This document shows, piece by piece, positions 1,984 through 28,396 of a stretch of 64,000 nucleotides of DNA (within the stretch, counting starts at the first letter, position 1; every line of letters starts with the position of its first letter). The notes beneath the pieces are model-generated. The model had not been told where the DNA came from. It ran no database searches and worked only from the letters and a program-made list of their open reading frames with translations. The DNA comes from Solwaraspora sp. WMMD792 (GTDB lineage: Bacteria; Actinomycetota; Actinomycetes; Mycobacteriales; Micromonosporaceae): NCBI RefSeq assembly GCF_029626105.1, contig NZ_JARUBH010000009.1, positions 6,938,011-7,002,010 on the forward strand, read 5' to 3'. Made by a program: the position numbers and the translations under genes.

Positions 1984-2018
1984 ATGCCGTCCAGGTCGTA
2001 CGGCCGGTGGAGGCCCCG

Positions 2019-9190: not shown

Positions 9191-9970
9191 TCAGCGGCCG
9201 GGGACGACGAACGGTCCCCAGGTGAACGCCGCGATCCACGGTGCCGGGTCGGCGCTCCAGCGCAGCGCGCGGATCCGTTCCTCGGTCAGCCGGCCGGACA
9301 TCGCCTGGTAGACGTCGTGCCAGGAGCCGGCGACGGTGATCGCCGGCGCACCCTCGCCGACCGGCCACTGGCCGAGGTCGGTCTCGACCCGCAGGGCCGG
9401 CAGGCCACGGTTGCGGGTCGACAGCGAAAGTCCTTTCGCCAGGATGCCCATCGCCACCGGCAGCGCCGGGTGCTCCGGTGCCGGCGGATCCATCCCGAGC
9501 GCCTGGCGCAGATCCAGCTCGTGGGTGAACGCGTCCATCACGAGAATGCCCCGCCGGACGGAGAACGGCTCGCCGAGGAACTGCTCGACCGGCCCGCTCA
9601 ACCGCGTCCAGTCGTCGAGGAGCTCGCCGATCCCGCCAGCCGGCAGCGGTGCGGTCGCGCGGTCCGCCGGCAGCAGCGAGAACTGGATGCCGGCCGGCGG
9701 CGGTCCGCCGCCGGTGCCTTCCGCCGCCGCCTCACCCGAGACGATCCGCTCATGCACCCGGGCACAGACCTGGACCAGGTGGCTGGCCAGGTCTGCGATG
9801 CTCCAGTCCGGGCAGCCGGGTACGGCTGCGGCCAGGTCCGGCGAACCGGCGGTGAGCAGCTCGGCCACGTTCCGGCGGACCTGCCGGTACCCGGCCGCGG
9901 CCGGTCCGGCCGGGGTCGGTCCGGCGCCCGAGGCATTCGACTCGGCGCGGACGGAGTCGCTTACGGACAT
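9191..9970 (-). CDS. Maleylpyruvate isomerase-like (MDMPI/DinB-fold) protein
   Basis: A 259-residue protein of the mycothiol-dependent maleylpyruvate isomerase-like family. The N-terminal four-helix domain includes CPDWSIADLASHLVQVCARV (metal-ligand His near residue 64) and MDAFTHELDLRQALG (near residue 150), whose histidines normally bind zinc. The C-terminal part is the family's smaller second domain. Many members act in mycothiol-dependent isomerisation or detoxification; others are uncharacterised. It is 37 bp from the epimerase gene upstream on the same strand, so it is probably the second gene of that operon. Confidence 0.8.
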   Translation of the reverse strand: MSVSDSVRAESNASGAGPTPAGPAAAGYRQVRRNVAELLTAGSPDLAAAVPGCPDWSIADLASHLVQVCARVHERIVSGEAAAEGTGGGPPPAGIQFSLLPADRATAPLPAGGIGELLDDWTRLSGPVEQFLGEPFSVRRGILVMDAFTHELDLRQALGMDPPAPEHPALPVAMGILAKGLSLSTRNRGLPALRVETDLGQWPVGEGAPAITVAGSWHDVYQAMSGRLTEERIRALRWSADPAPWIAAFTWGPFVVPGR

Positions 9971-10007: not shown

Positions 10008-11078
10008 TCACTGTCGGTCGGGCAATGGCTGTCCGGCCGGGTCGGTCGACGCCCGCCCGGCCTGTTCGGCAGAAAGCCGCCCGGTCCGGTGCAGCCAGCG
10101 CACCGTGTCGGCGACCGTCCGGTCGAACGGGCGGGCGGGCGGTCCGATCAACGGCGCGTCCTGCGGCGGGTGGGCCGCGCAGGCGCAGACGTAGCAGGCT
10201 CCGTACTCGGCCGGGATGTGCCACGGCCAGACCCGTTGCACCAGGTCGGTGAGCCGGGCGAACGGCAACATCGCCCGAGCCGGCAGGAACACCGTCGGCA
10301 GCCGTCGCCCGGTCACCGCACGGACGGTGGCCACGTAGTCGCGGGTGCTGACGTACCGTCCCGGCCCGAAGTGCCGGTCCAGGCCGTCGCTCGGCGCGGT
10401 GAGCAGCGCCGCGTGCAGGGCGGCGGTGTCGCGGACGTCGCCGACCGGGAAACCGCCGGTCGGCCAGACCGGCATCATGCCGCGCAGCACGTACCGCAGC
10501 CGGGCGGTCTGGTCGCCGATCTTCGGGTCGTCCGGACCGAGCAGCGCCGGGGGATAGCTGATCACCACCGGCGCGCCCTGCTCCTGGTGCCGGCGGGCGA
10601 TCCGTTCCGCCGCCGCCTTGCTGGCCAGGTAGGTCTCGCTGGCGGTGCCGACCGGCGAGCGCGGGCCGAGCGGCGAGCGCGCGCCGAGCGGTGAGCCGCC
10701 TGCCGGCAGCAAAGCACCCACTGTGGACACGTACACCGTGCGGGCCACCCCATGGTCACGCGCCGCCGCCAGCACCAGTTCGGTGCCGCGTACGTTGGTC
10801 CGCCGGGTAGCGGCGTGCCGCCGGCTGTCGAACGAGTAGACCGAGGCGGCGTGCACCACCGCGTCGGTGCCCCGGACCGCCCGGTCGACCGCGGCCGGGT
10901 CGGTGACGTCACCGACCACCACGTCGACCGCCGTGTCGGGCACTCCCAGCGGTGCCACCGCCCGGGCCACCCCGGCGACGTCGCGGGCCAGTACCCGGAC
11001 CTGGTGGCCGGCGGCCAGGATGGCCGCGACCGTGTGCGCGCCGACGAATCCGGTGCCACCGGTGACCAGGACCAGCAT
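10008..11078 (-). CDS. NAD-dependent epimerase/dehydratase-family protein (extended SDR)
   Basis: A 356-residue extended SDR. It begins with the NAD-binding loop VTGGTGFVGAHTV (residues 5-17). DVVVGDVTDP and VVHAASVYSF follow, and the catalytic YLASK motif lies near residue 148. It resembles 3-beta-HSD/dihydroflavonol reductase-like members more than sugar epimerases. Between about residues 125 and 140 it carries three short Ser-Pro-Leu/Val-Gly repeats (SPLGARSPLGPRSPVG), apparently a small tandem expansion. I chose the ATG at 11078, preceded by GGAGGAGACCG. The pathway is unknown; it is divergent from the enediyne gene unbL and could be a tailoring reductase. Confidence 0.83.
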   Translation of the reverse strand: MLVLVTGGTGFVGAHTVAAILAAGHQVRVLARDVAGVARAVAPLGVPDTAVDVVVGDVTDPAAVDRAVRGTDAVVHAASVYSFDSRRHAATRRTNVRGTELVLAAARDHGVARTVYVSTVGALLPAGGSPLGARSPLGPRSPVGTASETYLASKAAAERIARRHQEQGAPVVISYPPALLGPDDPKIGDQTARLRYVLRGMMPVWPTGGFPVGDVRDTAALHAALLTAPSDGLDRHFGPGRYVSTRDYVATVRAVTGRRLPTVFLPARAMLPFARLTDLVQRVWPWHIPAEYGACYVCACAAHPPQDAPLIGPPARPFDRTVADTVRWLHRTGRLSAEQAGRASTDPAGQPLPDRQ

Positions 11079-11406
11079 CGGTCTCCTCCATTTCTGGAAT
11101 CCACCCATGCGCCATGGTCGGATATCGTGCGCCGACCGGGCCGATAACGGCGCCTGGGCAAAACAAATCTCCCGTACCGGCGTGGAGTGCCCGCACAGGT
11201 CGTCGCTCGGTGTGTCGTACAACAATTTCGTTGGTGTCGGTCCGGTCCGATCGTGCCCCGGCGAGCGACGGTGGTCTTCTCTCATCGTGCCGTTGTTGAC
11301 GCTACTTAGCCGCAGGTCACAGGGCAATCGGGAAGTGGCGCCCGCACTGCCGCGCCGGCACGATCAATGATGATGCTTGTCTGATCTGGATGAATGGGAG
11401 CGATAG
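11079..11406. promoter_or_regulatory. Divergent region between epimerase and unbL
   Basis: These 328 bases separate the minus-strand epimerase from plus-strand unbL and should contain promoters for both. I see no coding signal, strong palindrome or recognised operator. Confidence 0.4.
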
Positions 11407-12393
11407 GTGACCGGAATCATCCGAGGACTCCGGCAACGGGTCCTGACCCCTGACATTTCGCAGACCCGGGTATCCGTTCGCGGCTTCCACGACAAAGGGC
11501 CGGAAGCAGTTGAGGTCCTGGAATCCGTCGGTGCCGCGTTCCTCGCCGGGCTCTCCTCGGCCGCCGGCGCCCGGCGGGTCACCGACGTCGACACCGACCT
11601 CGCTCCGTTGCCGACCCGCTTCCAGGGGTTCGCCTACGAGGGCGCGGCGATGGGCTTCGCCCTGGTCGACGCGATCACCCCGGGGAAACCCCGGCGCAGC
11701 GCCGAGTTCCTCGCCGGGACCGGCGACCGGCACGTCTACATGGCGTACGTCGGCATCGGCTGGGCGATGGCCCGGCTGCCCCGGTTCCTCTGGGGCCGGG
11801 CCAGCGCCGCCGCCACCGACCCGTTGCTGCGCTGGCTGGTGCTCGACGGGTACGGCTTTCACCAGGCGTACTTCCACACCACCGAGTACGTCGTCAACCG
11901 GCGGACGGTACGCGGCTTCCCCTGGCCGGCGGAAGGCCCGACGTGGTACGCCGACCGCGTCGTGGACCAGGGCATCGGCCGGGCCATCTGGTTCGTCGCC
12001 GGCTCCGACCCGACGCGCGCCGCGGACCTGATCGACGCGTTCCCGGTCGCCCGGCACCAGGACCTGTACAGCGGTGCCGGCCTGGCCGCTACGTACGCCG
12101 GTGGCGCCACCGAGGCGGAGCTCGCCCTCTTCCTGCGCCGCTCCGGTGACCATGCCCCGTTCGTCGCCCAGGCGAGCGCGTTCGCGGCCCAGGCCCGGAT
12201 CCGTGCCGGGCTGCTGACGCCGCACACCGAGCTGGGCACCGAGGTGTTCTGCCGGACCAGCGCGGCCGAGGCGGCCAAGATCACCGACGAGGAGATCCCG
12301 CCCGTCGCGGCGGAGTCCGACCTGCCGGCGTACGAGGTGTGGCGGTGCGCCGTCGCCGCACGCTTCCGCGCCGACGTCGGGGCGCAACCGTGA
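11407..12393 (+). CDS. unbL: Enediyne biosynthesis protein UnbL / E3 (DUF1702)
   Basis: A 328-residue member of DUF1702, one of the five proteins conserved with enediyne polyketide synthases. Family marks include FQGFAYEGAAMGFALVD, RHVYMAYVGIGWAMARLP, VLDGYGFHQAYF, GIGRAIWFVAG and SGAGLAATYAGG. The biochemical role is not established; it is needed for converting the linear polyene to the enediyne core. It starts with GTG 11407 behind GGGAG, and its stop overlaps the P450 start (GTGA). Unusually, it is on the strand opposite its usual partners unbV, unbU and pksE, separated from them by the P450 and two hairpins. Confidence 0.9.
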   Translation: MTGIIRGLRQRVLTPDISQTRVSVRGFHDKGPEAVEVLESVGAAFLAGLSSAAGARRVTDVDTDLAPLPTRFQGFAYEGAAMGFALVDAITPGKPRRSAEFLAGTGDRHVYMAYVGIGWAMARLPRFLWGRASAAATDPLLRWLVLDGYGFHQAYFHTTEYVVNRRTVRGFPWPAEGPTWYADRVVDQGIGRAIWFVAGSDPTRAADLIDAFPVARHQDLYSGAGLAATYAGGATEAELALFLRRSGDHAPFVAQASAFAAQARIRAGLLTPHTELGTEVFCRTSAAEAAKITDEEIPPVAAESDLPAYEVWRCAVAARFRADVGAQP

Positions 12394-13760
12394 CCGCGCT
12401 CGCCGACCAACCCAGCCGGTTGCGTCCCCCCGGGCCGTCACCCTGGTCGGCACCGGCCCTCCTGGCCCGGATGGCCCGCAACCGGCTGGACGTGATGCGG
12501 TCGGTGTCGGCCCGCTACGGCGACGCCGTCCGGCTGCCACTGGGGCCGAAGACGCTGTACTTCTTCAACCACCCCGACCACGCCAAGCACGTGCTCGCCG
12601 AGAACCCGGGCAACTACCACAAGGGGATCGGGCTGGTCCACGCCCGCCGTACCCTCGGCGACGGCCTGCTCACCAGCGAGGGTGAGCTGTGGCGCAAACA
12701 GCGCAAGACGATCCAGCCGGTGTTCCAGGCCCGGCGCATCGCCCGGCAGGCCGGCGCGATCGCCGAGGAGGCGGTCGGTCTGGCCGACCGACTGCACACC
12801 ATGGTCGGCCGCGACGAACCGGTCGACATCCGGCACGAGATGACCGACCTGACCCTCGGGGTGCTGGGGCGGACACTGCTCGACACCGACCTGGGTGAGT
12901 TCGGCGGCATCGGCGACGCGTTCGAAGCCGTCCAGGACCAGGCCATCTTCGAGATGATGTCGCTGGGCGCGGTGCCGACCTGGGTGCCGTTGCCCCGGCA
13001 GCGGCGGTTCCGCCGGGCCCGCGCCGAGCTGCAGGACGTCGTCGATCAGCTGGTCGCCCGGCGCCGCGCGGCCGGCGGCATCGCCGAACGCGACGACGTG
13101 GTGTCCCGGCTGATCGGATCGACCAGCGAGGAGACCGATCCGCAGGTCGCCCGGCAGCGGATGCGCGACGAGCTGGTGACCCTGCTGCTGGCCGGCCACG
13201 AGACCACCGCCAGCACCCTGACCTGGGCGTTCCATCTGCTCGACCGACACCACGACGTCTGGGAGCGGGTGCACGCCGAAGCGGTCGAGGTGCTCGGCGA
13301 CCGGACACCGGTCTACGAGGATCTGCACCGGCTGCGGTACACCGCGATGGTCGTCGACGAGGTGATGCGGCTCTACCCACCGGTCTGGCTGCTGCCCCGG
13401 ATCGCCCAGGGCGACGACGTGGTGGGCGGCTACCACGTGCCGGCCGGCGCTGACCTGGTGCTCTGCCCGTACACCCTGCACCGGCATCCGGAGTTCTGGC
13501 CGCATCCGGACCGGTTCGACCCGGACCGGTTCGACCCCGACCGCGGCACCGACCGGCCCCGGTACGCGTACATCCCGTTCGGTGCCGGTCCGCGCTTCTG
13601 CGTCGGCAACAACCTGGGGCTGATGGAGGCGGTGTTCGTGATCGCCTGCGTGGCGCGCCGGCTGCGGATGTCGGTGCAGCCCGGCTACCGCCTGGTCCCC
13701 GAACCGATGCTGACTCTGCGGGTCCGGGGCGGCCTGCCGATGCGGGTCCACGAGGCCTGA
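12390..13760 (+). CDS. Cytochrome P450
   Basis: A 456-residue P450. The I-helix oxygen-binding motif LLAGHETTAST lies near residue 268 and the K-helix motif EVMRLYPP (ExxR) near residue 325. The haem-binding loop is FGAGPRFCVGNN, with the Cys ligand near residue 403. It carries a small duplication, DPDRFDPDRFDPDR. The start is a GTG overlapping the unbL stop by 4 bp, so the two are translationally coupled. The sequence resembles CYP102/CYP4-like fatty-acid-type P450s rather than typical macrolide P450s. Coupling to unbL suggests oxidation of the enediyne core or its polyene precursor; no ferredoxin gene is nearby. Confidence 0.93.
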   Translation: MTALADQPSRLRPPGPSPWSAPALLARMARNRLDVMRSVSARYGDAVRLPLGPKTLYFFNHPDHAKHVLAENPGNYHKGIGLVHARRTLGDGLLTSEGELWRKQRKTIQPVFQARRIARQAGAIAEEAVGLADRLHTMVGRDEPVDIRHEMTDLTLGVLGRTLLDTDLGEFGGIGDAFEAVQDQAIFEMMSLGAVPTWVPLPRQRRFRRARAELQDVVDQLVARRRAAGGIAERDDVVSRLIGSTSEETDPQVARQRMRDELVTLLLAGHETTASTLTWAFHLLDRHHDVWERVHAEAVEVLGDRTPVYEDLHRLRYTAMVVDEVMRLYPPVWLLPRIAQGDDVVGGYHVPAGADLVLCPYTLHRHPEFWPHPDRFDPDRFDPDRGTDRPRYAYIPFGAGPRFCVGNNLGLMEAVFVIACVARRLRMSVQPGYRLVPEPMLTLRVRGGLPMRVHEA

Positions 13761-13775
13761 CCGGGCCGCCCACCT

Positions 13776-13815
13776 GACGCAGCCGGCGCTCGCACCTGCG
13801 AGCGCCGGCTGCGTC
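13776..13815. terminator. Bidirectional terminator hairpin 1
   Basis: The arms GACGCAGCCGGCGCTCGC (13776-13793) and 13798-13815 pair perfectly over 18 bp around ACCT. It lies 15 bp after the P450 stop, in the gap between the convergent unbL-P450 and unbV-to-flavin-reductase operons. Confidence 0.8.
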
Positions 13816-13907
13816 GTGTCCGGCCGGCGACGGGCACCCGATCTCCGGTGTGGACCCGGGCCGCATCGAAGAACGGGGTCGCATCGAAGGACCGGGCTGC
13901 AACGAAG

Positions 13908-13944
13908 GACCGGGCGGTCCCGCTGTGCGCGGGACCGCCCGGTC
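13908..13944. terminator. Bidirectional terminator hairpin 2
   Basis: The arms 13908-13923 and 13929-13944 pair perfectly over 16 bp (GACCGGGCGGTCCCGC) with a 5-nt loop. It lies 15 bp past the flavin reductase stop, so it probably ends the minus-strand enediyne operon. The space between this and hairpin 1 (13855-13907) contains three imperfect copies of a GCATCGAAGAACCGGG-like word. Confidence 0.8.
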
Positions 13945-13959
13945 GGGTGGCGGGTCGGG

Positions 13960-14538
13960 TCAGCCTCGGCCGGCGACCTCGACGAACCGGCCACCGTGGA
14001 ACAGCAGCGCGTCGTGGCCGTCACCGCGGCCGGTGCCGAGCACCGAACCGAGGAAGATGGAGTGGTCGCCGCCGTCGTAGACGGCGGCCAGCTTGCACTC
14101 CACCCAGGCCAGGCTGCCGGAGATGATCGGGGCGCCGGTGTGCCGCCCCGCCCAGTGGTCGACCGTCTCGAACTCCCGCTCGTCACGCGGCCGCGACGAG
14201 CTGGCGAAGTAGCGGGCCAGCCCTTCCTGGTCGGCGCCGAGGATCGACACCGCGAAGGTGCCCTGGGCCAGGACCGTCGCGTGCAGCACCGCGGTGCGCT
14301 TGACACACACCAGCACCAACGCCGGCTCCAGCGACACCGAGGAGAACGCGTTCGCGGTCATCCCGTGCGGCAGGTCGGTCCCGGACGTCACCAGGGTGAC
14401 GCCGGTGGCGAACATGCCCATCACGGTGCGCAGCTCGGCGTGGTCACCCCTGCCCGTACCGTTGGATCCGGCCGCCCCGACCGTACCGTTGGAACCGGCC
14501 GTTGCGACGCCCGGCACGGTCTGCTTGTCGGTAGCCAC
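13960..14538 (-). CDS. Flavin reductase (HpaC/SgcE6-like)
   Basis: A 192-residue short-chain flavin reductase that supplies reduced flavin from NAD(P)H. The domain begins near residue 33 after a low-complexity Gly/Ala/Asn leader. Marks are MGMFATGVTLVTSG, PHGMTANAFSSVSLEPALVLVCV, FAVSILGADQEGLARYF and the C-terminal GRFVEV. Such E6-type reductases accompany many enediyne clusters, where they serve a flavin-dependent monooxygenase. No obvious two-component monooxygenase partner is in this window, so the client is unknown. It begins 3 bases after the thioesterase stop and is the last gene of the five-gene operon. Confidence 0.9.
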   Translation of the reverse strand: MATDKQTVPGVATAGSNGTVGAAGSNGTGRGDHAELRTVMGMFATGVTLVTSGTDLPHGMTANAFSSVSLEPALVLVCVKRTAVLHATVLAQGTFAVSILGADQEGLARYFASSSRPRDEREFETVDHWAGRHTGAPIISGSLAWVECKLAAVYDGGDHSIFLGSVLGTGRGDGHDALLFHGGRFVEVAGRG

Positions 14539-14540
14539 GG

Positions 14541-15026
14541 TCAGCCCTCCCTGACGTCTTCGAGCACCCGGCGCTGCCCGTTGCCGTTGCCGTTACCACT
14601 GGCGACGGCGTAGTGCGACAGCGCGATCCGCAGCGGGTCCGGCACCCGGGCCGGGCGGGTGTCGGTGTTCGGCCCGCGCATGCACGCGATCCGCTGCCGG
14701 CCGCGGGCGACCAGCTCCTCGAACCCGTCCCGCAGCCGGACGTAGTCGAACGCGAAGCCGATCTGGGTCTGGGTCAGATCCTCCAACCGCATCCGGATCG
14801 ACAGCTCGTCGAAGGCGCTGATCTCGGCGAAGAACTCACACTCGCACTTGAGGGTGAACAGCTTGAGATCGTCGCGGATGTCGGCCAGCACCTCCGGCGC
14901 GCGGTCCCGGAGGAACATCTCCCGGCACCGGCCCTGCCAGCGTAGATAGTTGACGTAGTAGACGTTGCCCACCAGGTTGGTTTCCTCGAAACCCACCAGG
15001 TGCCGGTACTCGTAGTAGGACTCCAT
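14541..15026 (-). CDS. Enediyne thioesterase (E10/CalE7/DynE7 type, hot-dog fold)
   Basis: A 161-residue hot-dog thioesterase. The segment VGFEETNLVGNVYYVNYLRWQ (residues 11-31) and CREMFLRDRAPEVL are characteristic of the enediyne-specific family, which lacks the usual acidic catalytic residue of 4-hydroxybenzoyl-CoA thioesterases. In studied systems it releases the polyene chain from the ACP of the enediyne synthase. It begins 3 bases after the pksE stop, so expression is coupled to the PKS. The C-terminal tail has a short Gly/Asn repeat (SGNGNGNGQ), probably disordered. Confidence 0.93.
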   Translation of the reverse strand: MESYYEYRHLVGFEETNLVGNVYYVNYLRWQGRCREMFLRDRAPEVLADIRDDLKLFTLKCECEFFAEISAFDELSIRMRLEDLTQTQIGFAFDYVRLRDGFEELVARGRQRIACMRGPNTDTRPARVPDPLRIALSHYAVASGNGNGNGQRRVLEDVREG

Positions 15027-15029
15027 GAC

Positions 15030-18000
15030 TCACCTGCCTCCGTCGGCGGACATCGCGAAGACCACCGGGTCGTCGACGCCCTGCAGCGCGGTGGTGAAGG
15101 TGACGATCCGGGTGGTTCCGGACCGCAACGCCACCCAGCCAGCCGGTGCGTTCGGCTCAGCGGCCAGGTCGACCCGCGCGTGGCCGTTCTTGCGCAGACA
15201 CTCGATGGCGCCCCACACCCGGGTCGCCGACACCGACAACTCCTCGCCGTGCTCCCGGGCGACCAGCCTGGCCAGCGCCAGGTTCTCCGCGCCGAGCAGG
15301 TCGGCCCACTCCTCGTCGGTGCGGCCGGCGGCCACCTCGACGTCGCAGCCGACCGCCGCCGGGCCGGTGACCGCCACGGTCACCCCGGCGCCGTGCGACG
15401 CCGAGATCTGCGGCCCGCCGGTGACCTCCGGTTTTCCGTCCGGCCGGTAGCGCACCTGCGTGTCGCCGCCCAGCGCCCAGCTGACCGCCTTGCGGGTCTG
15501 CTCCCGCCGGTCGGCCACCTCGGTCGCCTGCGGGTCGTCCGGGCGGACCACCACCCGCAGGTCGGTCGGCAGGAACGCGCCGACCCGCCGCTCCAGGTAG
15601 GGCCCGACCAGCGCCGGCAGCCACGGACCGGAACCGTCCAGTTTGCGTACGGCGTGCAGCCGCAACCCCACCCACCGCTCGACGAGGTTGCCGTCCGGGT
15701 CACAGACGTCCACGTCGTACAGGTAGGTGTCGCCCTCCCGGGACCGCTCCAGCGCGTGGATGGTGACGGCGTCCAGGGTGGCGGCGACCTTCGCGTCGGC
15801 CAGGTGCAGCCGTTCGATCGCCCCCGGCAGCAGCGTGGCGTCCGGTACGCAGCACTGCAGGGCGTGCATCACCGTGTCCCGGGTGCCGGGGTCACCGAGC
15901 ACCAGCTCACCCGGCCGGAACCGGGCGAACCACGGCGCCACCGACCGGTTCGACACCCGCGCCACGCAGCTGGTGGCGGCCAGATCCAGATAGCCCTGCA
16001 GCCGCTGGAACCGCGACCCCTGGAACAGCACCGGCCCGTACAGCTCGTTGGCCGGGTCGATGGGCAGCAGCTCGGTGGCCGCGGGCGCCGGCCGTACCTC
16101 GGGACGGGCCGGCAGGTCGTAGCGCAGCCGGGCCCGGAAATGGTCGGCCGCGAACCCGGTGTCGCTGCTGCGGACCACCGCGTCGACGGCACCGTCCGGC
16201 GCGGCGAGCACCGCGATCCGGATGGTATTGCTGCCGTCGGGCGGTACCACGATCGGCCGGAGCAGTTCGACGTTCTCCAGTACCGGCGTCTCGATCCGCC
16301 CGGTCAGCGCCCGCGCCGCCTGGGCCATCGCCTCCATGCCGAGCACCGCCGGCAGCAGCAGGTCCCCGTCGAGCAGGTGGTCCGGCAGGTAGAGGTCGTC
16401 GTCGGCGGTCAGGTCGGCGTCGACGATCAGCTCGACGCCCGGGTAGTGCACCTGCGGCCGGTCGACGAAGCGCAGCAGCGGCAGCTCCCGCCGCTCCATG
16501 GTGACCGTCGGCAGCCCGTCGGAGCGGCTCATCACCACCATCGCCTGCGGCGCGGACGGGCTGGCCAGCACCTCCTTGAGGATCGCGATGCCGTCCTCGA
16601 CCGGGATCGGGGCGATGCCGTCGCGGGTCAGCGACTCCAGCACCCCGAGCCGTTCACCCATACCGGCACCCGACCACACCGACCACTCCAGGGCGAGGCA
16701 GCGGATGTGCGGGTGGTCCTCGCCGACCTTGCGGGTCAGGTCGGTCATCCAGTCGTTCGCGGTGGCATAGTGCGCCTCGCCGCGCAGACCGGCCCGACCG
16801 ATGATGCTGCCGAAGGTGATCAGCAGCCGCAGCGCCTGCGGGTCGGTAGCGGCGAGCACCGCGTCCAGGCCGTCGATCTTCGGAGCCAGGGTACGGCGGA
16901 AAGCGGCCTCGTCGAGCGCGGCCAACGGTGTCGGTTCGTTGCGTCCGGCGCCGTGCAGCACCCCGGTGACCTGGCCGAGCGCCTGCTCGACGGCGTTCAC
17001 CGCCGCCTTCACCTGGTCCACCGCGGTGATGTCGGCCCGGGCGTAGTGGAACCGGACACCAGCGGCCCGCAACCGGTCCAGGTTGGCGGCCAGTTCGGCG
17101 TCGTCGGCCGGGTCGGAGCGGCCGAGCAGACCGACGGCGGTGCCGGTGTCCCGGCCCAGCGCCAACGCGCACTCGGCGGTGATGCCCTTGCCGCCGCCGG
17201 TGACCAGCAGCACGTCGTCCGGGCCGATCCCGGCGCCGCCGTTGGGCGGCAGCTGGATCGGCCGCAGCACCGGCTCGTACCGCTCACCGGCGGCGTCGTA
17301 GTGGACCTCGCTGAATCCGGTCGTCGCACCGACGTCGGCGACGAGCCGGCGCACCACCTCGTCGAGTCCCTCGTCGCGGGCCGCCGGATCGTCGTCGGCC
17401 GCCGGGTACTCCGGCAACGGCAGCAGCACCACCGTGGTGTCGATCTCCGGATGCTCCTGGTGCAGCGTCTTGGCCAGACCGGCGGCGGACCGCCGGTCAC
17501 CGACCGCGACGAACCGGACCGGCCCGCCGGCGGACAGCGCCGCGCGGGCGGCCCGCAGCAGCACCGGGACGTGCTCCGGCTGACCGTCGCGGGGCAGACA
17601 GAGCAGCACCCCGTCGCCAACTCCGGCCGTCCGTAGCGCCGCCGCCAGCGGCTCGGCGAACGGATTGTGGCCGGCGGTGAAGACCTGCCAGTCACCGTCG
17701 ACACCCGACCCGGCGGACGGGGCAGGCGAGGTCGGCACCAGGTCCACGGCGAACGCCCGGACCCAGGGGGCCACTCCGGCGACGACCGGCTCCGCGTCGT
17801 CGCCGGCCGGTGCGGCACCGGCGGCGTCGTCGAGGATCTGCGCGATCTCGGCCACCGTCGCGGTGGCGTAGCTGGAGGTCAGCGTCGGCGCCGGAACGTC
17901 GAGCTCGCGGGCCGCCTGGTTGACGATCTGGCCCACGGTGATCGAGCTCAGATGCAGCTCGTCAAGGGGCCGGCTGTCCGGGCGTACCGCCTCCAGCGGC

Positions 18001-20876
18001 AGCTCGGCCCGTTCGGCGGCGAGCCGACGGAGCACCTCGAGACTGTCGGCACCGGAGCGCCCCGCCGCTTGGTCCCGGGAGCTGTTCGCGGATCCCGGGG
18101 CGTGATCGGCCGGCTGGGCTCCGGCCTGCCGGGCGACGGCGAAGTCGCCGGCCGGGGCCGACTCGGCCGGGCTGGCGAGGAAGCGCAGCGGCCGACCGGG
18201 TTCCAGCGGTCGGGTGAACCGGCCCTGAAACAACGCATCGTGGTCGATCGAAGCGCCCAGTGCGTACGCCGCCCCGACGGCGTTGAGCAGCCCGGACAGC
18301 GACAGGCTGTCGGTTTCCAGCGAGATCGTCGGCACGTCCGGGGCGATCTCACCGGCCAGGCCCCGCAGGATCCGACCCGGGCCGACCTCCAGCAGCAGGT
18401 CACTGCTCTGCGCCAGCCGGCTCACCGCCTGGGTGAACCGCACCGGGTCGAGCACCTGCCGGCGCAGCAGGTCGACGACGTCGGTGTCGGCCGGCAGCGG
18501 CTCACCGGTGACAGTGGAGACCATCGACCTGGCCAGCGGGGTGAACGACTGACCGGCCAGGTGCTCGCCGAACGCCACCGCGGCCGGGGCGACCGCCTCG
18601 GAGTGGAAGGCGTGCGACACGGCGATCCGGGTCCAGAACAGGCCCTGTCGTTGCGCCCGGGCACCGACCTCCTCGACCGCGGCGACCGGGCCGGAGACCA
18701 CGGTCTGCTGCGGACTGTTGTAGCCGGCGATCACCGCCGCCGTACCGGACAGCAGCGGCTGCACCACCTCGGGCGCGGCGGAGATGCTGGCCATGGTGCC
18801 GTCACCGGCGCTGGCGTCGGCCATGATCCGGCCCCGGGCGGCGGCCGTGGCGAGCAGCGTCGGCTCGTCCATCGCCCCGGCCCAGTGCAGCGCGGTCAGT
18901 TCACCGAGGCTGTGCCCGGCGGCGCCGGTGGCCTCGATGCCCACCATGGACAGCACCCGCAGCCCGGCGACCGATCCGGTGACGATCCGTGGCTGGGCGA
19001 CCGCCGTGGCCACCAGGTCGGTGCCGGCCGGCGGCTGGTACGTCCGGTACAGCGCGTCGACGTCGGCGAACCGGCGACGCAGTGCGCCACCGTCGGCCCG
19101 CCGGCCGGCACCCTGCCCGGGGAACAGGTACCCGATGCGCGGGTTGCCGCCGGCGGCGCCGAGGAACACGCCGTCGGTGGCGTCGATCACCGTACGTTCG
19201 CCAGCGGCGACCGCCTCTGCCAGCCGGCTGAGCCGGGCGGCGGCCTGCTCCGGGGAGCCGGCGACGACCGCGGCCCGGACCGGCTGGCCGGCCAGCTGCC
19301 CGGCCAGCGCGGCGGCCAGGTCGCCGAGCTCGGCGTAGGACAGCCGGGCCACCCACGGGGCCAGCCCGCCGAGCCGTTCGCCGAGCTCCTGTGGGCTCCG
19401 GGCGTCGAACAGCAGCAGTTCGGTGTCCTGCCGGGACCGCACCAGCGCCGTCGTCGCGGTGCCGACCCGGGTCCGCCGACTGGTCTCGGCGGTCTCCACC
19501 ACCACGTGGGCGTTGATCCCGCCGAAGCCCATCGACGAGACCGCGGCCCGGATCGGCTTGTCCGCCGGCCACAGCTCGGCGCTGTCCGGCACCCGCAGCG
19601 CGGGCTGCTCGACGTCGAGTTCCGGGTGGGTCTCGACGTGTCCGGTTGCCGGCGGGATCACCTGCTGGCGGACCGCCAGGATCGCCTTGAGTAGACCGGC
19701 GACCCCGGCGGCGGCCTTGGTGTGGCCGAAGTTGCCCTTGACCGTACTGATCGCGGCCGGCTCGGCCTCCGGCGCCGCCTCCCGGCGGGCCTCGGTGAAC
19801 GCGCGCAACTCGGTGGCGTCGCCGACGGCCGTCCCGGTGCCGTGCCCCTCCAGGTAGGCGACCGAGTCGATGCCGAAGCCGGCCCGCTGGTACGCCCGCC
19901 GGATGGCCAGCCGGTGGCCGCTGGCCTCCGGCCGGGTGATGCCGCCCTTGCCGTCGGAGGAGTAGCCCCAGCCGGCGATGACCGCGTGCCGCCGCAGCCC
20001 CCGGGCGATGGCGTCCTCGTCGCGCATCAGCACCAGCATGCCGCAGCCCTCACCGGGCCAGAAGCCGTTGGAGTTGCGGTCGTACACCCGCATCTCGGCG
20101 GTGGCCAGCGCGCCGGTCTTGGCGAACCCGATCACTTCGAACGGGTCGATGCTCAGGTCCACCCCGCCGGCGATCGCCGCGTCCAGTTCGCCGTTGCTCA
20201 GCGCGTTGCAGGCGGTGGCCACCGACAGCAGCGACGACGAGCAGGCACCGTCGACGGTGTACCCGCCGCCCTTGAAGTCGAAGTGGTTGCAGATCCGCCC
20301 GGCGATGGTGTTGGCCAGCCCACCGGCGAGGGTGTCCTCGTCGATCGGCGGGAACGGCGCCTTGTAGCGCGGCTCCAGGTCGTCCAGGAAGGCGGTCACC
20401 GCGGTGTCGTCCCAGCCCTGCTCGCGCAGGGCCGCGCCGACCGTGCGTCGCACGTACGGCCAGCGCAGCCGCAGCAGGTTCGCCCGGCTGAACTCACCGG
20501 TCAGGGTGTTGCCGATGACCACGCCGGTGCTGGCCGCCGGCAGCCCTTCACCGTCGGCGAAGCCGGCGTCGGCCAGCGCCCGGGCGACGGTGTCCAGGGC
20601 CAGCCAGTGGGTCATGTCGGTGGACCGGAACGTGCTGCCGGCGATCCGGTACTTGACCCGGTCGAACTCGAACCCCTCCAGCACCGCCGCCTTGGCCGAG
20701 TAGAACCGGTCCGGTGCGGCCGGGTCGGGGGAGTAGTAGTCCTCGTGGTTCATCCGCTCGTCCGGCAGCCGGCGGAAGGCCCGGCGGCCGGTGAGTACGT
20801 TCTCCCACAGTTGGTTGGGGGAGTCGGCGTCGGGATACCGGCAGGCGATCCCGACCACCGCGATACGGTCAGTCAT
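15030..20876 (-). CDS. pksE: Enediyne iterative type I polyketide synthase (PKSE)
   Basis: A 1948-residue iterative PKS that builds the polyene from which the enediyne core is made. The KS (about 1-455) has the active-site VDGACSSS near residue 210 and the histidines EGHGTGT and GNFGHTKAAAG. The AT (about 570-880) has GHSLGE near 655. The ACP (about 955-1035) has the phosphopantetheine Ser in DELHLSSITV near 975. The KR starts with VTGGGKGIT near 1222. The DH has DHLLDGDLLLPAV near 1497. The C-terminal integral phosphopantetheinyl transferase (about 1825-1948) has VGCDVEVA. This order and length are diagnostic of PKSE, and all catalytic motifs appear intact. Whether the final core is 9- or 10-membered cannot be read here; no apoprotein gene is present. 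Confidence 0.97.
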   Translation of the reverse strand: MTDRIAVVGIACRYPDADSPNQLWENVLTGRRAFRRLPDERMNHEDYYSPDPAAPDRFYSAKAAVLEGFEFDRVKYRIAGSTFRSTDMTHWLALDTVARALADAGFADGEGLPAASTGVVIGNTLTGEFSRANLLRLRWPYVRRTVGAALREQGWDDTAVTAFLDDLEPRYKAPFPPIDEDTLAGGLANTIAGRICNHFDFKGGGYTVDGACSSSLLSVATACNALSNGELDAAIAGGVDLSIDPFEVIGFAKTGALATAEMRVYDRNSNGFWPGEGCGMLVLMRDEDAIARGLRRHAVIAGWGYSSDGKGGITRPEASGHRLAIRRAYQRAGFGIDSVAYLEGHGTGTAVGDATELRAFTEARREAAPEAEPAAISTVKGNFGHTKAAAGVAGLLKAILAVRQQVIPPATGHVETHPELDVEQPALRVPDSAELWPADKPIRAAVSSMGFGGINAHVVVETAETSRRTRVGTATTALVRSRQDTELLLFDARSPQELGERLGGLAPWVARLSYAELGDLAAALAGQLAGQPVRAAVVAGSPEQAAARLSRLAEAVAAGERTVIDATDGVFLGAAGGNPRIGYLFPGQGAGRRADGGALRRRFADVDALYRTYQPPAGTDLVATAVAQPRIVTGSVAGLRVLSMVGIEATGAAGHSLGELTALHWAGAMDEPTLLATAAARGRIMADASAGDGTMASISAAPEVVQPLLSGTAAVIAGYNSPQQTVVSGPVAAVEEVGARAQRQGLFWTRIAVSHAFHSEAVAPAAVAFGEHLAGQSFTPLARSMVSTVTGEPLPADTDVVDLLRRQVLDPVRFTQAVSRLAQSSDLLLEVGPGRILRGLAGEIAPDVPTISLETDSLSLSGLLNAVGAAYALGASIDHDALFQGRFTRPLEPGRPLRFLASPAESAPAGDFAVARQAGAQPADHAPGSANSSRDQAAGRSGADSLEVLRRLAAERAELPLEAVRPDSRPLDELHLSSITVGQIVNQAARELDVPAPTLTSSYATATVAEIAQILDDAAGAAPAGDDAEPVVAGVAPWVRAFAVDLVPTSPAPSAGSGVDGDWQVFTAGHNPFAEPLAAALRTAGVGDGVLLCLPRDGQPEHVPVLLRAARAALSAGGPVRFVAVGDRRSAAGLAKTLHQEHPEIDTTVVLLPLPEYPAADDDPAARDEGLDEVVRRLVADVGATTGFSEVHYDAAGERYEPVLRPIQLPPNGGAGIGPDDVLLVTGGGKGITAECALALGRDTGTAVGLLGRSDPADDAELAANLDRLRAAGVRFHYARADITAVDQVKAAVNAVEQALGQVTGVLHGAGRNEPTPLAALDEAAFRRTLAPKIDGLDAVLAATDPQALRLLITFGSIIGRAGLRGEAHYATANDWMTDLTRKVGEDHPHIRCLALEWSVWSGAGMGERLGVLESLTRDGIAPIPVEDGIAILKEVLASPSAPQAMVVMSRSDGLPTVTMERRELPLLRFVDRPQVHYPGVELIVDADLTADDDLYLPDHLLDGDLLLPAVLGMEAMAQAARALTGRIETPVLENVELLRPIVVPPDGSNTIRIAVLAAPDGAVDAVVRSSDTGFAADHFRARLRYDLPARPEVRPAPAATELLPIDPANELYGPVLFQGSRFQRLQGYLDLAATSCVARVSNRSVAPWFARFRPGELVLGDPGTRDTVMHALQCCVPDATLLPGAIERLHLADAKVAATLDAVTIHALERSREGDTYLYDVDVCDPDGNLVERWVGLRLHAVRKLDGSGPWLPALVGPYLERRVGAFLPTDLRVVVRPDDPQATEVADRREQTRKAVSWALGGDTQVRYRPDGKPEVTGGPQISASHGAGVTVAVTGPAAVGCDVEVAAGRTDEEWADLLGAENLALARLVAREHGEELSVSATRVWGAIECLRKNGHARVDLAAEPNAPAGWVALRSGTTRIVTFTTALQGVDDPVVFAMSADGGR

Positions 20877-20889
20877 CAGATACCTTTCC

Positions 20890-21885
20890 TCACGCCGCCG
20901 CGCCGGCCACCGGCGCGGGGGCGGGTGCCACCGCCGCCTGCTGCTGGGCGCGCTTGCGCAGGTGAACCATCCACCAGTAGATGCCGCGGGCGCCGCAGAC
21001 CACGACGACGGCGAAGAACAGCGTGTAGACGACGTTGAACAGCATCAGTACGCCGTAGACCATGGCCACCGACGACCCGAACATGAACTGGTGGATCGGC
21101 TTGACCGGGGTGGTCCCCGGGTCGGTGATCATGTAGTTGGTGAACAGCACGAACGCCACCCCGGCCATCACGCCGAGCGCGGAGAACAGCGCCACGTCCC
21201 AGATCCAGTGCCGCAGCAGCGCCTGGATGGCGAAGCCGCCCAGCCAGCCGACGATCAACGCCACCTTGCGGGTCAGCATGGCGTTGATCACCGTACCGGC
21301 GGTGACGATGATGATCGGGATCATGATCCGGAAGAAGGTGTTGGCACCCTCGGTGAACTGGTACGGCGGGGCGATCGAGATCCACGAGCCGAAGCAGACC
21401 AGGGCCGCGGTGATGCCCAGGTTGGACGGGTTCATGTAGTGCCGCATCCGGCCGTACACCGGGGCCTGGAAGACGTACTTGCCGGTGACACCGACGATCA
21501 CCGCGAACGCGATCGGCAGGAACATGTCGTTGGCGTACAGCAGCATGTTGCAGGCCAGCGCGGTGATGTGGGCGGGCAGCAGGAACTCGTACAGGCCGCG
21601 TCCGCCGCGCCCGGCGTACCGGGGTGCCCGCTGCTGCATCCGGGCGCTGAAGGTCTCGAAGACCAGGTCGGTGGCGTAGCCCACCAGCACCGCCAGGATC
21701 GGCCACAGCCAGGGCTGCTCGAAGCCCAGGACGGTGTATCCGAGGATGTTGAACACGGTCATCGAGATGGCGAAGTTGCGCAGCGCCAGGTAGCGGCGGT
21801 CCGGCTCCTTCGCCGCCGGCGCTGGTGGGCCGGCGGGGGCCGTCGTCGTGCCGACGGTCTGTTGGCGTTCGGCGGTCGTGGTCAT
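20890..21885 (-). CDS. unbU: Enediyne biosynthesis protein UnbU / E4 (RnfD/NqrB-like membrane protein)
   Basis: A 331-residue polytopic membrane protein with several hydrophobic segments, conserved with enediyne synthases. It resembles the RnfD/NqrB membrane subunits of flavin-linked redox pumps (YMNPSNLGITAALVCFGSWISIAPPYQF). Its exact step is unknown; an electron-transfer or export role has been proposed for the family. It overlaps the 3' end of unbV by 4 bp and is followed 13 bp later by pksE. A Pro/Ala-rich linker (residues about 12-30) precedes the first membrane segment, and the C-terminus ends in a Pro-Ala run. Confidence 0.92.
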   Translation of the reverse strand: MTTTAERQQTVGTTTAPAGPPAPAAKEPDRRYLALRNFAISMTVFNILGYTVLGFEQPWLWPILAVLVGYATDLVFETFSARMQQRAPRYAGRGGRGLYEFLLPAHITALACNMLLYANDMFLPIAFAVIVGVTGKYVFQAPVYGRMRHYMNPSNLGITAALVCFGSWISIAPPYQFTEGANTFFRIMIPIIIVTAGTVINAMLTRKVALIVGWLGGFAIQALLRHWIWDVALFSALGVMAGVAFVLFTNYMITDPGTTPVKPIHQFMFGSSVAMVYGVLMLFNVVYTLFFAVVVVCGARGIYWWMVHLRKRAQQQAAVAPAPAPVAGAAA

Positions 21886-23852
21886 CGGTTCGGAACCTCC
21901 TGGACACGGTCGGTCAGCACGAGGGTGTGCGTGCCGGCCGACAGCTGCTGGGTGGTGCTGTGCAGATCGCCGTCGAGGTCACGCCAGCGCAGGTCGACGG
22001 TGACCGGGCCGGTGGCGTCGCCGAGCCCGAGGTGGACCTCGAAGCTGCGCTTGCCGCCGTGGCCGCTGCCGCCGTCGAGCTGGGAGACCTGCCGGCGCCC
22101 GTCTGCGGTGGTGACCGTGACGGTGGCGCCGTAGGCCGGCGTACCGGGCAGGTCGGCGTCGGTGCCGTCCAGCGTCGGCCGGTACAGCCGCAGGTTGAGG
22201 TAGTCGCCGAGGTCCGGTGCCTCGTTGGTGTAGAACGCCGGGGCGGCCCACTGCCGGGCCACGGCCAGGTCGAGCGCGCCGGTCGCCCGGGTGTCGGCGG
22301 TGGCGATGCCGCGGGTCGGGATCGGCACGTCCAGGCCGAGCTGCTCGGTGATGTTGGTGAACTCGCCGCTGTCGGTCCGGGCGAAGAAGGCGAGCGGCTG
22401 GTCACCGGCGATGTCGTCGCCGGGCTGCATGTTCGGCCACATCGCCGGGTTGGACAGCAGGTTGTCGTTGGACATCGCCATCTCCTGCAGCCACGGCCAC
22501 CGGTCGATGTCGCCCTTGACGAAGCCGAGCGTCTGCACGACCTCCAGGTCGCCGTCGTTGCGGAAGTCGGCGAACTTCACGTCCCAGCCCCAGCCGCTCC
22601 AGGCCATGCCGAGCGGCCGGGCCTGCTGGATGAACGGCGCGGTACCGGCGGAGAGGCTCTGCAGAGCCTCCTCCTCGGAGCCGGCCTGGTTCACCCAGAC
22701 GAAGTTGCTCTCCTCCAGCCCCCAGGCGGTGGTGATGTTGGAGACCACCATGTCGAAGCTGCCGTTGGCGTTCAGGTCGCCGAAGTCGACGCCCATCCCC
22801 TTGAACGAGTCCTTGCCCAGCTGGAACGACTTCGGCGTACCGTGGCTGCGCTCGCCGTAGACCGCCTCGAACTTGATCCGACCGGGGCGGGAGACGTTGT
22901 GCAGCAGGGCGTCGAAGGTGAAGTCGTTCGCCACGTACATGTCCGGCAGGCCGCGACCGGTCAGGTCGGCGGAGCCGAGCGCCAGGGTCCAGCCGGTGCT
23001 CTTGGCGAACGGGACCGCGCCCCGCTCCGGCACGAACGTCACCGACGGCGTGTCACCGGCGGTCGCCGCATGCCAGCGCAGCACCTGCAGCCCGCCGCCG
23101 TTGGTGGCGGTGGAGAGCGAGTCGTTCATCTCGACGTTGTCCTGGCCGTCCGGGTCGAGCACGTCGGACTCGGGGAAGTAGTTGCCGATCACCACATCCG
23201 GCTTGCCGTCGCCGTCGAAGTCGTTGACCGTGGCGGCGTTGGTGTGCCACTTAGGACCGTGGTAGCGGCCGTCCGGCGAGTCCTGCGGCAGGATCTCCTG
23301 TCGGTGGTACGCCTCGTTGGCGGGCAGCTCGGTGCCGGCCTTGCGCAGGAACAGGATCGGCACCCGACCCCAGTAGGTCACCATGATGTCCATCCGGCCG
23401 TCCAGGTTGTAGTCACCCGGTACGCAGCCCATCGGTGCCATCGTGTGGTCGATCGGCAGCGGGGCCGGGTCGAGCAGGAACGGCTCGAACCGGTCGGCGG
23501 CCGGTGCGGTCGGCGCGTAGGTGACCACCACCTCGTTGGTCCGCACGTCGACGAAGCACAGGCTGTTGGCCACCCCGTGGCCGGTCAGGTCGTTGACGGC
23601 GATGCTCGCGCCCACCGAGGAGATCCAGGACCGGATCTTGTGGTACGACTCGTTGACCTCACGGATGTTCCGTTTAGGTAGTTGGTCGTAACCCTCCGGA
23701 TAGTCGATCTCAAGCTCGGTGAACCGGTACTTTTGGGCAACCTCGTCAGCGCCGGCCACCGACACGCGAGCGTCGATGACGAAGAACATCACGGCGAGGA
23801 GTAAAATCGCCGCTATTCCGGGGCTGATCGAGCGCAGGCGTTGACCCAGCAC
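21882..23852 (-). CDS. unbV: Enediyne biosynthesis protein UnbV / E5 (FG-GAP and ASPIC/UnbV domains)
   Basis: A 656-residue exported or membrane-anchored protein. An N-terminal hydrophobic segment (SPGIAAILLLAVMFFVID, residues about 9-26) is followed by several FG-GAP/VCBS-type repeats (VNDFDGDGKPDVVIGNYF, DLTGRGLPDMYVANDF, DLNANGSFDMVVSN, ADFRNDGDLEVVQT). These resemble integrin-like calcium-binding beta-propeller blades. The C-terminus carries the ASPIC/UnbV domain (GPVTVDLRWRDLDG). It is the promoter-proximal gene of the operon unbV-unbU-pksE-TE-flavin reductase. The chemical role is unknown; the extracytoplasmic location suggests a late or export-linked step. Confidence 0.94.
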   Translation of the reverse strand: MLGQRLRSISPGIAAILLLAVMFFVIDARVSVAGADEVAQKYRFTELEIDYPEGYDQLPKRNIREVNESYHKIRSWISSVGASIAVNDLTGHGVANSLCFVDVRTNEVVVTYAPTAPAADRFEPFLLDPAPLPIDHTMAPMGCVPGDYNLDGRMDIMVTYWGRVPILFLRKAGTELPANEAYHRQEILPQDSPDGRYHGPKWHTNAATVNDFDGDGKPDVVIGNYFPESDVLDPDGQDNVEMNDSLSTATNGGGLQVLRWHAATAGDTPSVTFVPERGAVPFAKSTGWTLALGSADLTGRGLPDMYVANDFTFDALLHNVSRPGRIKFEAVYGERSHGTPKSFQLGKDSFKGMGVDFGDLNANGSFDMVVSNITTAWGLEESNFVWVNQAGSEEEALQSLSAGTAPFIQQARPLGMAWSGWGWDVKFADFRNDGDLEVVQTLGFVKGDIDRWPWLQEMAMSNDNLLSNPAMWPNMQPGDDIAGDQPLAFFARTDSGEFTNITEQLGLDVPIPTRGIATADTRATGALDLAVARQWAAPAFYTNEAPDLGDYLNLRLYRPTLDGTDADLPGTPAYGATVTVTTADGRRQVSQLDGGSGHGGKRSFEVHLGLGDATGPVTVDLRWRDLDGDLHSTTQQLSAGTHTLVLTDRVQEVPNR

Positions 23853-24309: not shown

Positions 24310-24624
24310 GTGTCTGTCGAGGGATTCTGGAAGGTCGCCGTGGCCACCCCGCTGGGTACCCGGCACACCGTGCTCGAATTGTTCACCAAGGACGGTGCGC
24401 TGCAGGGGATCTCCCGTGGGGAGAAGGAGGAGTTGGTACTGCAGGACCTGCAGCTGGCCGGCGACCGGTTGTCCTGGTTCCAGTCGATCACCAAGCCGAT
24501 CCGGATGAACCTGGTGTTCGACGTGGTCGTCGACGGTGACGAGATGTCCGGCACCGCGAAGGGCGGCCCGATGCCGCCGGCGAAGGTCAGTGGCCGGCGC
24601 GAACCGGCGACCCAGGCGGCCTGA
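24310..24624 (+). CDS. Small calycin-like conserved protein, function unknown
   Basis: A 104-residue protein. Start GTG 24310 has AGGAG 7 bp upstream. Sequence features (VEGFWKVAVATPLG, LELFTKDGALQG, LSWFQSITKPIRMNLVFDVVVDGDEMSGTAKGG) match a widespread family of small beta-barrel proteins that typically read VEGxWxxxVxTPxG...ITxPMxxxLxFxxxVDGDxMSGxxKxG. No enzymatic function is known to me; the fold suggests binding of a small hydrophobic ligand. It is divergent from the enediyne operon and the first plus-strand gene after it. A ligand-binding or protective role for an enediyne intermediate is speculative. Confidence 0.75.
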   Translation: MSVEGFWKVAVATPLGTRHTVLELFTKDGALQGISRGEKEELVLQDLQLAGDRLSWFQSITKPIRMNLVFDVVVDGDEMSGTAKGGPMPPAKVSGRREPATQAA

Positions 24625-24834
24625 CCTCGGCCGCAGCGGCGATCCCGGGCGCCCGGCCCGTCCACCACGGCTGGGTATCCGGGTGCCCCGGGTCGTCCAC
24701 CGTGGCCCGGCGACCGGGATCCCCGGTGGGGCCGCGCAACCGCCCCTCGGACGGTCGTCGATGATCCGTACGACCGATTGACTTATTCTCATTTATCATT
24801 AAAAGTCATGGATATTCCGACCGGGGAGAGATCC

Positions 24835-26388: not shown

Positions 26389-26437
26389 CACCAGGGAAGC
26401 TGCCATCCGGCCACCAGGGAGCCGGCGTCGCTGCCGG

Positions 26438-28337: not shown

Positions 28338-28396
28338 GGCGGCGGAGACCTCCACGGCTGGCTCGACGTCGGCCGCGATCCCGGGCCGTCCGGAGC

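Follow-up and report, generated by a model that had tools for sequence, protein, structure and literature searches.

What does an enediyne cassette make when one of its two usual DUF1702 genes is absent, and to which class of enediynes does it belong? The question is raised by a 64,000-nucleotide stretch (here called the window) of the 7.4 Mb genome of Solwaraspora sp. WMMD792, in which UnbL, a cytochrome P450, an E6-type flavin reductase, an E10 thioesterase, a polyketide synthase (PKS), UnbU and UnbV lie side by side. To judge from these genes and their relatives, the window probably holds a complete enediyne-family cluster that belongs to a monophyletic branch without the DUF1702 protein E2, and that specifies an enediyne-type product.

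The core cassette and the missing E2

In enediyne biosynthesis, the PKS makes a polyene, E10 releases it, and the E3 to E5 proteins help to form the core. The corresponding genes of the window, and the two hairpins among them, are as follows.

11407-12393, plus strand: UnbL, the E3 protein (DUF1702; PF08012, E 9e-123)
12390-13760, plus strand: cytochrome P450 (PF00067, E 1e-82 to 2.6e-84)
13776-13815: perfect hairpin with a 19-bp stem, between the P450 and flavin-reductase 3' ends; candidate terminator, fold z -7.5
13908-13944: perfect hairpin with a 16-bp stem, between the same 3' ends; candidate terminator, fold z -7.2 (-5.1 on the other strand)
13960-14538, minus strand: E6-type flavin reductase (PF01613, E 2e-39)
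14541-15026, minus strand: E10 thioesterase (4HBT_2, E 4e-12)
15030-20876, minus strand: enediyne PKS, 1948 aa (Pfam KS, AT, PP-binding, KR and DH; PPTase-like end)
20890-21885, minus strand: UnbU, the E5 protein, membrane-like, 331 aa (alignment with UnbU of other cassettes)
21882-23852, minus strand: UnbV, the E4 protein (UnbV_ASPIC, PF07593, E 1e-13); the start may be at 23789

A sequence-only reading had named all seven genes at these places, and the Pfam matches and the UnbU alignment bear it out. UnbU itself matches no Pfam or NCBIfam family, and a PDB search with an UnbL profile found no relative (best E 0.5). The best solved relatives of the flavin reductase are 5cho, 4r82 and 4hx6 (E 5e-47 to 1e-45), the last two of which we take to be SgcE6. 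The thioesterase is 70% identical to 4i4j (listed as an ACP-polyene thioesterase and presumably SgcE10), 72% to CalE7 and 53% to DynE7. The PKS has the domain order KS-AT-ACP-KR-DH-PPTase (ACP, acyl carrier protein; PPTase, phosphopantetheinyl transferase), with the motifs ACSSS, GHGTGT and GHTKA in KS and GHSLGE in AT, and its AT region matches the DynE8 structures 4amn. The integral PPTase of the sequence-only reading is retained as PPTase-like: its motifs, GCDVE at 1843 and then a WxxxExxxK stretch, were read by eye and are presumed to be those of a PPTase, but Pfam gives no match at the C-terminus.

An UnbL profile search gave 469 relatives, and gene order was compared in the best 80 of these, the named loci. 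Fourteen of them form the E2-less set, chosen for having no E2 in view and unbL adjoining a P450 gene; the other 66 were viewed to at most 10 kb on either side of the hit. Removal of the eight loci nearest to the window leaves 72 other named loci. One published account gives the common enediyne cassette as E3/E4/E5/E/E10 (PMC5181780), and all five genes are clustered in the window. Two genes are extra to the published set: E6, which the sequence-only reading had counted in the established minimal one, and P450. Both are common all the same, E6 matching in 61 and P450 in 57 of the 72 loci.

Most of the cassettes compared carry two DUF1702 genes, E2 and E3. The UnbL of the window scores higher against E3 than against E2 and falls outside the E2 branch, and the possibility that it is E2 was rejected by both scores and tree placement. 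There is no second DUF1702 gene in the window genome. The cassette is enediyne-type as first read, but its main point, the missing E2, had not been recognized. Of the 80 named loci, 64 have E2 in view; the remaining 16 include 14 that belong to the clade of the window. In a survey of 354 Micromonosporaceae genomes, UnbL matches are present in 146 and window-type UnbL (at least 74% identity) in 14, of which 11 have a single UnbL match. Six member genomes lie outside the family, three with one match, two with two and one with three. Altogether, 14 of the 20 member genomes have one DUF1702 match; the extra copies examined are those of G004 (a PKS-less locus) and G149 (a second E3-type gene). The G149 region (L092/L093, G149:C1:1293240-1333239) has two E3-type UnbL genes, one adjoining a P450 gene and one apart, with a second UnbV nearby.

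The PKS was also placed by phylogeny. In a FastTree analysis of 62 PKS rows (among them two partial ones and two outgroups) and 1924 columns, the 15 E2-less rows form one branch with support 100, which spans Micromonosporaceae and Streptomycetaceae and is nested in other C-1027-side rows; the five dynemicin-side rows stand apart from it. The group called E2-bearing in this tree includes L156 and G003b, which have no E2 beside the PKS, although the G003b genome has one elsewhere. An IQ-TREE mixture model with 29 rows gives the same branch and rejects the E2-bearing rows (19, G003b among them) as one clade in the approximately unbiased (AU) test (p-AU 0.0088). A repeat on 28 rows, in which all 18 E2-bearing rows have the gene in view, rejects it as well (p-AU 0.0118). 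The E2-less branch has support 100 in all three PKS trees, whose rows include no named 9-membered PKS, no CalE8 and no PfaA. Since it is nested within E2-bearing rows, a single E2 loss in this branch is suggested when the root is set on the dynemicin side. By gene content, the clade also extends to Pseudonocardiaceae.

The gene order of the window is split: the unbL-P450 unit on the plus strand converges on the E6-E10-PKS-U-V unit on the minus strand, and the P450 gene begins with a GTG at 12390 and shares its first 4 nt (GTGA) with the end of unbL. The displacement of unbL to the opposite strand and its coupling to the P450 gene had been noted before and are upheld by these features, but they are not special to the window. 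Eight of the 14 E2-less loci have a called 4-nt overlap, and in the other six the P450 gene starts 2-83 nt past the stop. unbL is followed directly by P450 in 14/14 E2-less loci (partly by selection), compared with 5/64 E2-bearing loci, where the next gene is UnbV in 45 and PKS in 14. Likewise, the PKS is on the strand opposite unbL in all ten E2-less loci with a PKS in view (one being the AT-like piece of Actinosynnema pretiosum), and unbL and PKS share a strand in 55 of the 61 E2-bearing loci with a PKS in view. L125 and L156 have no E2 in view, yet unbL is followed there by UnbV or PKS. The split order is therefore the rule in the E2-less clade and the exception elsewhere, and the view that it is an oddity of the window was rejected. 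The two hairpins were also said to fence off unbL and P450 as terminators. Both stems are perfect and may serve as terminators, but both lie between the P450 and E6 3' ends, no T-tract follows either of them, and no terminator-like site was found. Upstream of unbL (11060-11420), there are only imperfect, wide-looped inverted repeats (18 nt, 78%, 63 nt apart; 13 nt, 85%, 164 nt apart).

The conserved cluster around the cassette

The cassette had been described as complete, and its core genes are indeed present, but they make up just the central part of a conserved cluster, which begins to the left of the window and extends to about 32 kb (about -4.7 to +32 kb in window coordinates). Conservation was scored in 15 well-covered clusters: 12 from Micromonosporaceae and those of Kitasatospora paracochleata, Actinacidiphila acididurans and A. 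pretiosum. A sixteenth region, from Actinocrispum wychmicini, is at a contig end and is excluded from the counts. Named strains among the members include Salinispora fenicalii, Micromonospora haikouensis, M. halophytica, M. rosaria, M. rubida and K. paracochleata. UnbL, P450, E6, UnbU and UnbV are kept in 15/15 clusters, and PKS and E10 in 14/15. The remaining genes of the block are listed below; Pfam was run on all window proteins of at least 60 aa from de novo gene calling, the GMC protein being represented by its N-terminal 336 aa.

1-1010, minus strand: GMC oxidoreductase (g27), 513 aa, 3' end at about -531 (PF00732, 9.5e-44 for the in-window part); 15/15 clusters
1147-1902, minus strand: TetR-type regulator (g28; PF00440, PF13305); 14/15
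1974-3377, plus strand: carotenoid-cleavage-type oxygenase of the RPE65 family (g29; PF03055, 1e-108); 13/15
3530-4084, plus strand: membrane-like protein of 184 aa, no Pfam family (g30); 12/15
4074-4715, plus strand: CopC-domain protein (g31; PF04234, 1e-14)
4823-5698, minus strand: short-chain dehydrogenase (SDR) g32, here SDR32 (PF00106); 15/15
5724-6323, minus strand: AhpD/CMD-like protein g33, here AhpD33 (PF02627, 1e-10); 15/15
6767-7693, plus strand: CMD-like protein g34 (CMD34), a weak call (PF02627, 1e-4, 22.7 bits against a cut-off of 23); 14/15
8226-8924, plus strand: AraC-type regulator (g35; PF12833, 8e-20); 15/15
9191-9970, minus strand: mycothiol-dependent isomerase-like protein (g36; PF11716; TIGR03083 75 bits, cut-off 50); 12/15
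10008-11078, minus strand: NAD-dependent epimerase/SDR g37 (SDR37; PF01370); 13/15
24310-24624, plus strand: protein of 104 aa (g45); 12/12 Micromonosporaceae clusters, 0/3 distant ones
24835-26388, plus strand: FAD oxidoreductase (g46; PF13738); 9/15
26438-27091, minus strand: nitroreductase (g47; PF00881); 9/15
27219-28337, minus strand: glutamate-cysteine-ligase-like protein g48 (GCS2; PF04107); 9/15
28397-29563, minus strand: M20 peptidase-like protein (g49; PF01546); 9/15
29767-30312, plus strand: AhpD-like protein (g50; PF02627, 3e-13)
30354-31196, minus strand: membrane-like protein, no Pfam family (g51); 12/15
31442-32287, plus strand: mycothiol-isomerase-like protein, the likely right edge of the cluster (g52; PF11716); 12/15

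The right edge is placed at g52 because conservation of g53-g56 is limited to the two nearest genomes. To the left of the window (-4698 to -610), an acyl-CoA-ligase-like protein, an enoyl-CoA-hydratase-like protein, a DUF899 protein and SDR26 are kept in 6/15 clusters, including two distant members.

Three of these genes are linked to the clade. Best-hit genes for one or more of GMC, SDR32 and AhpD33 are present in 11 of the 14 loci of the E2-less set, and the other 66 named loci have none of the three. With tblastn, weaker AhpD33-like matches (median 34% identity) are seen in 8/72 loci beyond the eight nearest. In the family survey, every one of the 14 genomes that have window-type UnbL encodes a GMC protein of at least 69% identity, as does one of the 340 others (G007, an incomplete genome). 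The next best match (57%) is a second copy in G149, followed by one at 52%; in G237, the GMC and UnbL genes are on different contigs. The window thus has all the marks of the clade, namely, a single E3, unbL-P450 opposite the PKS, and the GMC, SDR32 and AhpD33 genes. The dN/dS values for 16 genes compared with S. fenicalii are 0.05-0.26, and the cluster is under purifying selection.

The closest solved structure to the carotenoid-type oxygenase is a carotenoid 9,10-dioxygenase (E 2e-69). His 175, 223, 288 and 461, which we take to be the iron ligands, are kept in 18, 21, 21 and 17 of 21 rows, among which some genomes appear twice. The gene is absent in S. fenicalii and A. pretiosum. Matches to g30 occur in 11/72 other named loci (up to 77% identity) and to its CopC neighbor g31 in 4, so that the two may be a general enediyne-associated pair. 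A 535-aa open frame without a Pfam family lies antisense to the FAD oxidoreductase gene (24799-26406, minus strand) and is most likely a GC-rich shadow frame. The PKS of Micromonospora sp. ATCC 39149 is called as three pieces, which may reflect sequence error or decay.

A possible pathway, ring size and alternatives

Together, these genes suggest the following course. Primed by its own C-terminal PPTase-like part, the PKS would build a conjugated polyene on its ACP, and the E10 thioesterase would free it. UnbL, UnbU and UnbV, with the P450 and the flavin reductase, would convert the polyene to an enediyne-type core, which the clade-linked GMC oxidoreductase, SDRs and AhpD-like proteins would then adjust oxidatively. 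These clade-linked enzymes most likely act where E2-dependent steps or sugar and halogen tailoring stand in other pathways, and the core is probably neither glycosylated nor halogenated by genes of this cluster. unbL and P450 would be made as one coupled unit converging on the V-U-PKS-E10-E6 unit, with the hairpins between their ends. In every member compared, E6 and P450 are kept with UnbL, UnbU and UnbV, and this favors the formation of a core over a plain polyene. Self-protection might come, at a guess, from redox and thiol proteins (mycothiol-isomerase-like, GCS2-like and nitroreductase-like) instead of an apoprotein.

Several observations weigh against this picture. On the UnbL tree by itself, the E2-less rows do not come together and need 4 changes, although the clade is not rejected there (p-AU 0.676); a check on UnbL, which the sequence-only reading had proposed along with PKS, thus confirms the E3 type but does not recover the clade on its own. 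The AU test concerned a group that had been defined once the pattern was visible in a first tree. In A. pretiosum, a 429-aa AT-like piece of 42% identity (L216, joined region 28110-29399) stands in place of the PKS; E10 is missing while much of the set is kept, a combination that a strictly PKS-dependent pathway does not readily explain. The literature consulted links no metabolite to any member. The mycothiol-type genes, kept in 12/15 clusters each, and GCS2, kept in 9/15, are not in all members, which weakens the resistance idea. Finally, we know of no place for a carotenoid-type oxygenase in enediyne routes, and its presence could point to another fate of the polyene.

Ring size can be told from two published markers. 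In the account cited above, E2 marks 9-membered and R3 marks 10-membered enediynes (PMC5181780). R3 is equated here with ABC1 proteins, on the basis of tnmR3, whose product is described as an AarF/ABC1/UbiB-type protein (PMC9464397), and of the ABC1 homologues near 4 of the 5 dynemicin-side cassettes. No R3-type (ABC1) gene was found in the window region by homologue search. The genome has a strong PF03109 gene far away (185 bits) and weak matches elsewhere, and a 30-bit match 9 kb to the left of the window is the protein-kinase-like g19. ABC1 genes do occur near the E2-less clusters of K. paracochleata and A. pretiosum (Pfam 164 and 167 bits), and near none of the other 78 named loci; the K. 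paracochleata cluster contains, in addition, genes for an HxlR regulator and an MFS transporter. With E2 and R3 both absent in the window and an R3-type kinase in two distant members, ring size is not callable from markers: the rule is silent for the window and reads "10-membered" for two of its relatives. Nor is ring size fixed by the thioesterase tree, which mixes SgcE10 and CalE7, both on the window side, CalE7 on a long branch. In that tree, the dynemicin cluster is anchored by the E10 of G165, which is 100% identical to DynE7, and the Kitasatospora and Actinacidiphila proteins are apart from the window group.

The alternative that survives best is an ordinary 9-membered-type cluster, which has lost E2 without chemical consequence and uses the extra oxidoreductases for routine tailoring. 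In its favor, PKS and E3 are placed among E2-bearing clusters, E10 is on the SgcE10 side, and P450 and E6 are common to many E2-bearing loci. However, E2 is otherwise so regularly in view, the loci without it being nearly all of this clade, and a kinase typical of 10-membered clusters is carried by two distant members, that we regard this alternative as a real possibility short of an even chance. A 10-membered, calicheamicin-like cluster, with E2 absent as the rule has it and R3 lost in Micromonosporaceae, would account for that kinase in K. paracochleata and A. pretiosum, and the HxlR gene of the former recalls the TnmR1/R3 pair of tiancimycin; CalE7 on the window side of the thioesterase tree also agrees. 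Its long branch, the failure to find an R3-type gene in the window cluster and the separate dynemicin-anchored branch in the PKS trees make this somewhat unlikely. E2 could also have been replaced by the GMC/SDR/AhpD set, with the polyene diverted through the carotenoid-type oxygenase to a core that is neither 9- nor 10-membered, an idea that we consider unlikely.

A non-enediyne polyene pathway is improbable. The oxygenase would cut the polyene to apo-polyene aldehydes, to be finished by the SDRs and the GMC enzyme, as would suit its presence in 13/15 clusters with alcohol/aldehyde-type oxidoreductases and the failure to find peripheral-moiety genes. But UnbL, UnbU, UnbV, E6 and P450, kept in 15/15, would seem needless for a simple polyene, and the oxygenase is missing in two members. 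A locus that is decayed or akin to polyunsaturated fatty acid synthases, the latter being the finding that the sequence-only reading had set against itself, can be dismissed as extremely improbable: the TIGR02813 (PfaA) model does align with the PKS, but at 449 bits, far under its cut-off of 1010, the reading frames are open, the dN/dS values are low and the five-gene cassette is in place.

Self-protection, known systems and significance

That the window lacks an apoprotein, glycosyltransferase, halogenase, aminomutase or CalC-like protein was already proposed from the sequence. The Pfam scan of the window proteins agrees, with no match to apoprotein, START/AHSA1, glycosyltransferase, halogenase or aminomutase families; in the conserved block, no exporter, apoprotein, glycosyltransferase or halogenase was found. 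Two candidates outside the window were rejected. One is the single PF00960 match of the genome (25.9 bits against a cut-off of 25, 23.7 as a whole protein, 57/110 positions), 91.4-92.3 kb to the right of the window start and about 68 kb from the cassette; its borderline score, partial cover and neighbors (beside a periplasmic-binding-protein gene, near a heme-oxygenase gene) speak against an apoprotein. The other is an AHSA1 protein, presumably of the CalC-type fold (L010:5882-6391), 25 kb to the left of unbL; the family match is genuine, but the gene lies left of the conserved block, and nothing like it turned up in the 16 compared regions or among the 80 named loci, most of them too short to reach it.

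The absence of obvious self-resistance holds for the conserved block but not for the whole window, which has a glyoxalase/bleomycin-resistance-family gene (43629-44036; PF00903, 1.6e-21) to the right of the block. It may confer resistance, for this cluster or for another one. It adjoins an AraC-type regulator gene (43629-44487 for the two) and is conserved at 100% in the two nearest genomes. The other 14 regions and the 80 named loci, mostly too short to reach it, gave no match. Also to the right of the block are an ABC-transporter pair (54758-58117) and a YcaO gene beside a 44-aa open reading frame (46400-46534) and a large regulator with BTAD and NB-ARC domains (44992-49795), a possible locus for a small ribosomally synthesized and post-translationally modified peptide (RiPP). 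An Rfam scan of the window gave nothing at gathering scores.

The likeness to known systems is partial in each case. With C-1027-type (9-membered; sgc) clusters, the window shares E3, E4, E5, PKS, E10 (70% identical to SgcE10), the E6-type reductase and P450; unlike them, it has no E2, no apoprotein, aminomutase, halogenase or sugar-transfer family, and has unbL-P450 on the other strand. The calicheamicin cluster has an E10 72% identical to that of the window, and 10-membered clusters also lack E2 by the published rule. However, no glycosyltransferase or CalC-like family is present in the window and no R3-type kinase was found nearby. Dynemicin/tiancimycin-type clusters share the five-gene cassette, and two distant E2-less members share their ABC1 gene and one an HxlR gene, but the window PKS is 43% identical to that of locus G165 and on a separate branch. 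The E2-bearing Salinispora loci L104, L105, L107 and L108, presumably linked to cyanosporaside and sporolide, are of the same cassette family and bacterial family; they differ in having the E2+E3 pair and a one-strand order, and their PKSs are 53-55% identical to that of the window.

A different arrangement is seen in G003 (L044:2946-19129 and L025) and G004 (L042/L043), where UnbV, UnbU and a DUF1702 gene occur with an ABC1 kinase. These loci also carry selA, selB, a selD-like gene and tRNA-Sec (Pfam was run on the G003 genes), and no enediyne PKS or thioesterase was found in 40 kb there. This type of DUF1702 protein (E of at most 1e-95) has three matches in the 354 family genomes, these two and one of 53% in an ordinary PKS cassette.

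No description of the E2-less clade was recognized in the accessible parts of the open literature, including PMC10868606, PMC12838356, PMC5765111, PMC9967187 and PMC7692728. The survey cited as reference 5 in PMC5181780 may include members. Nine orphan cluster families similar to enediyne clusters are reported from Salinispora in PMC12838356, and members of the clade may have been seen by software before. The clade is apparently a distinct, uncharacterized E2-less branch of the enediyne family with an unusual set of oxidizing enzymes. As a branch without E2 among E2-bearing clusters, with R3 in some members only, it escapes the E2/R3 typing rule. Since sugar, halogen and apoprotein genes are absent from the conserved block, its product may show a nearly bare core, and the clade is a natural experiment on the role of E2.

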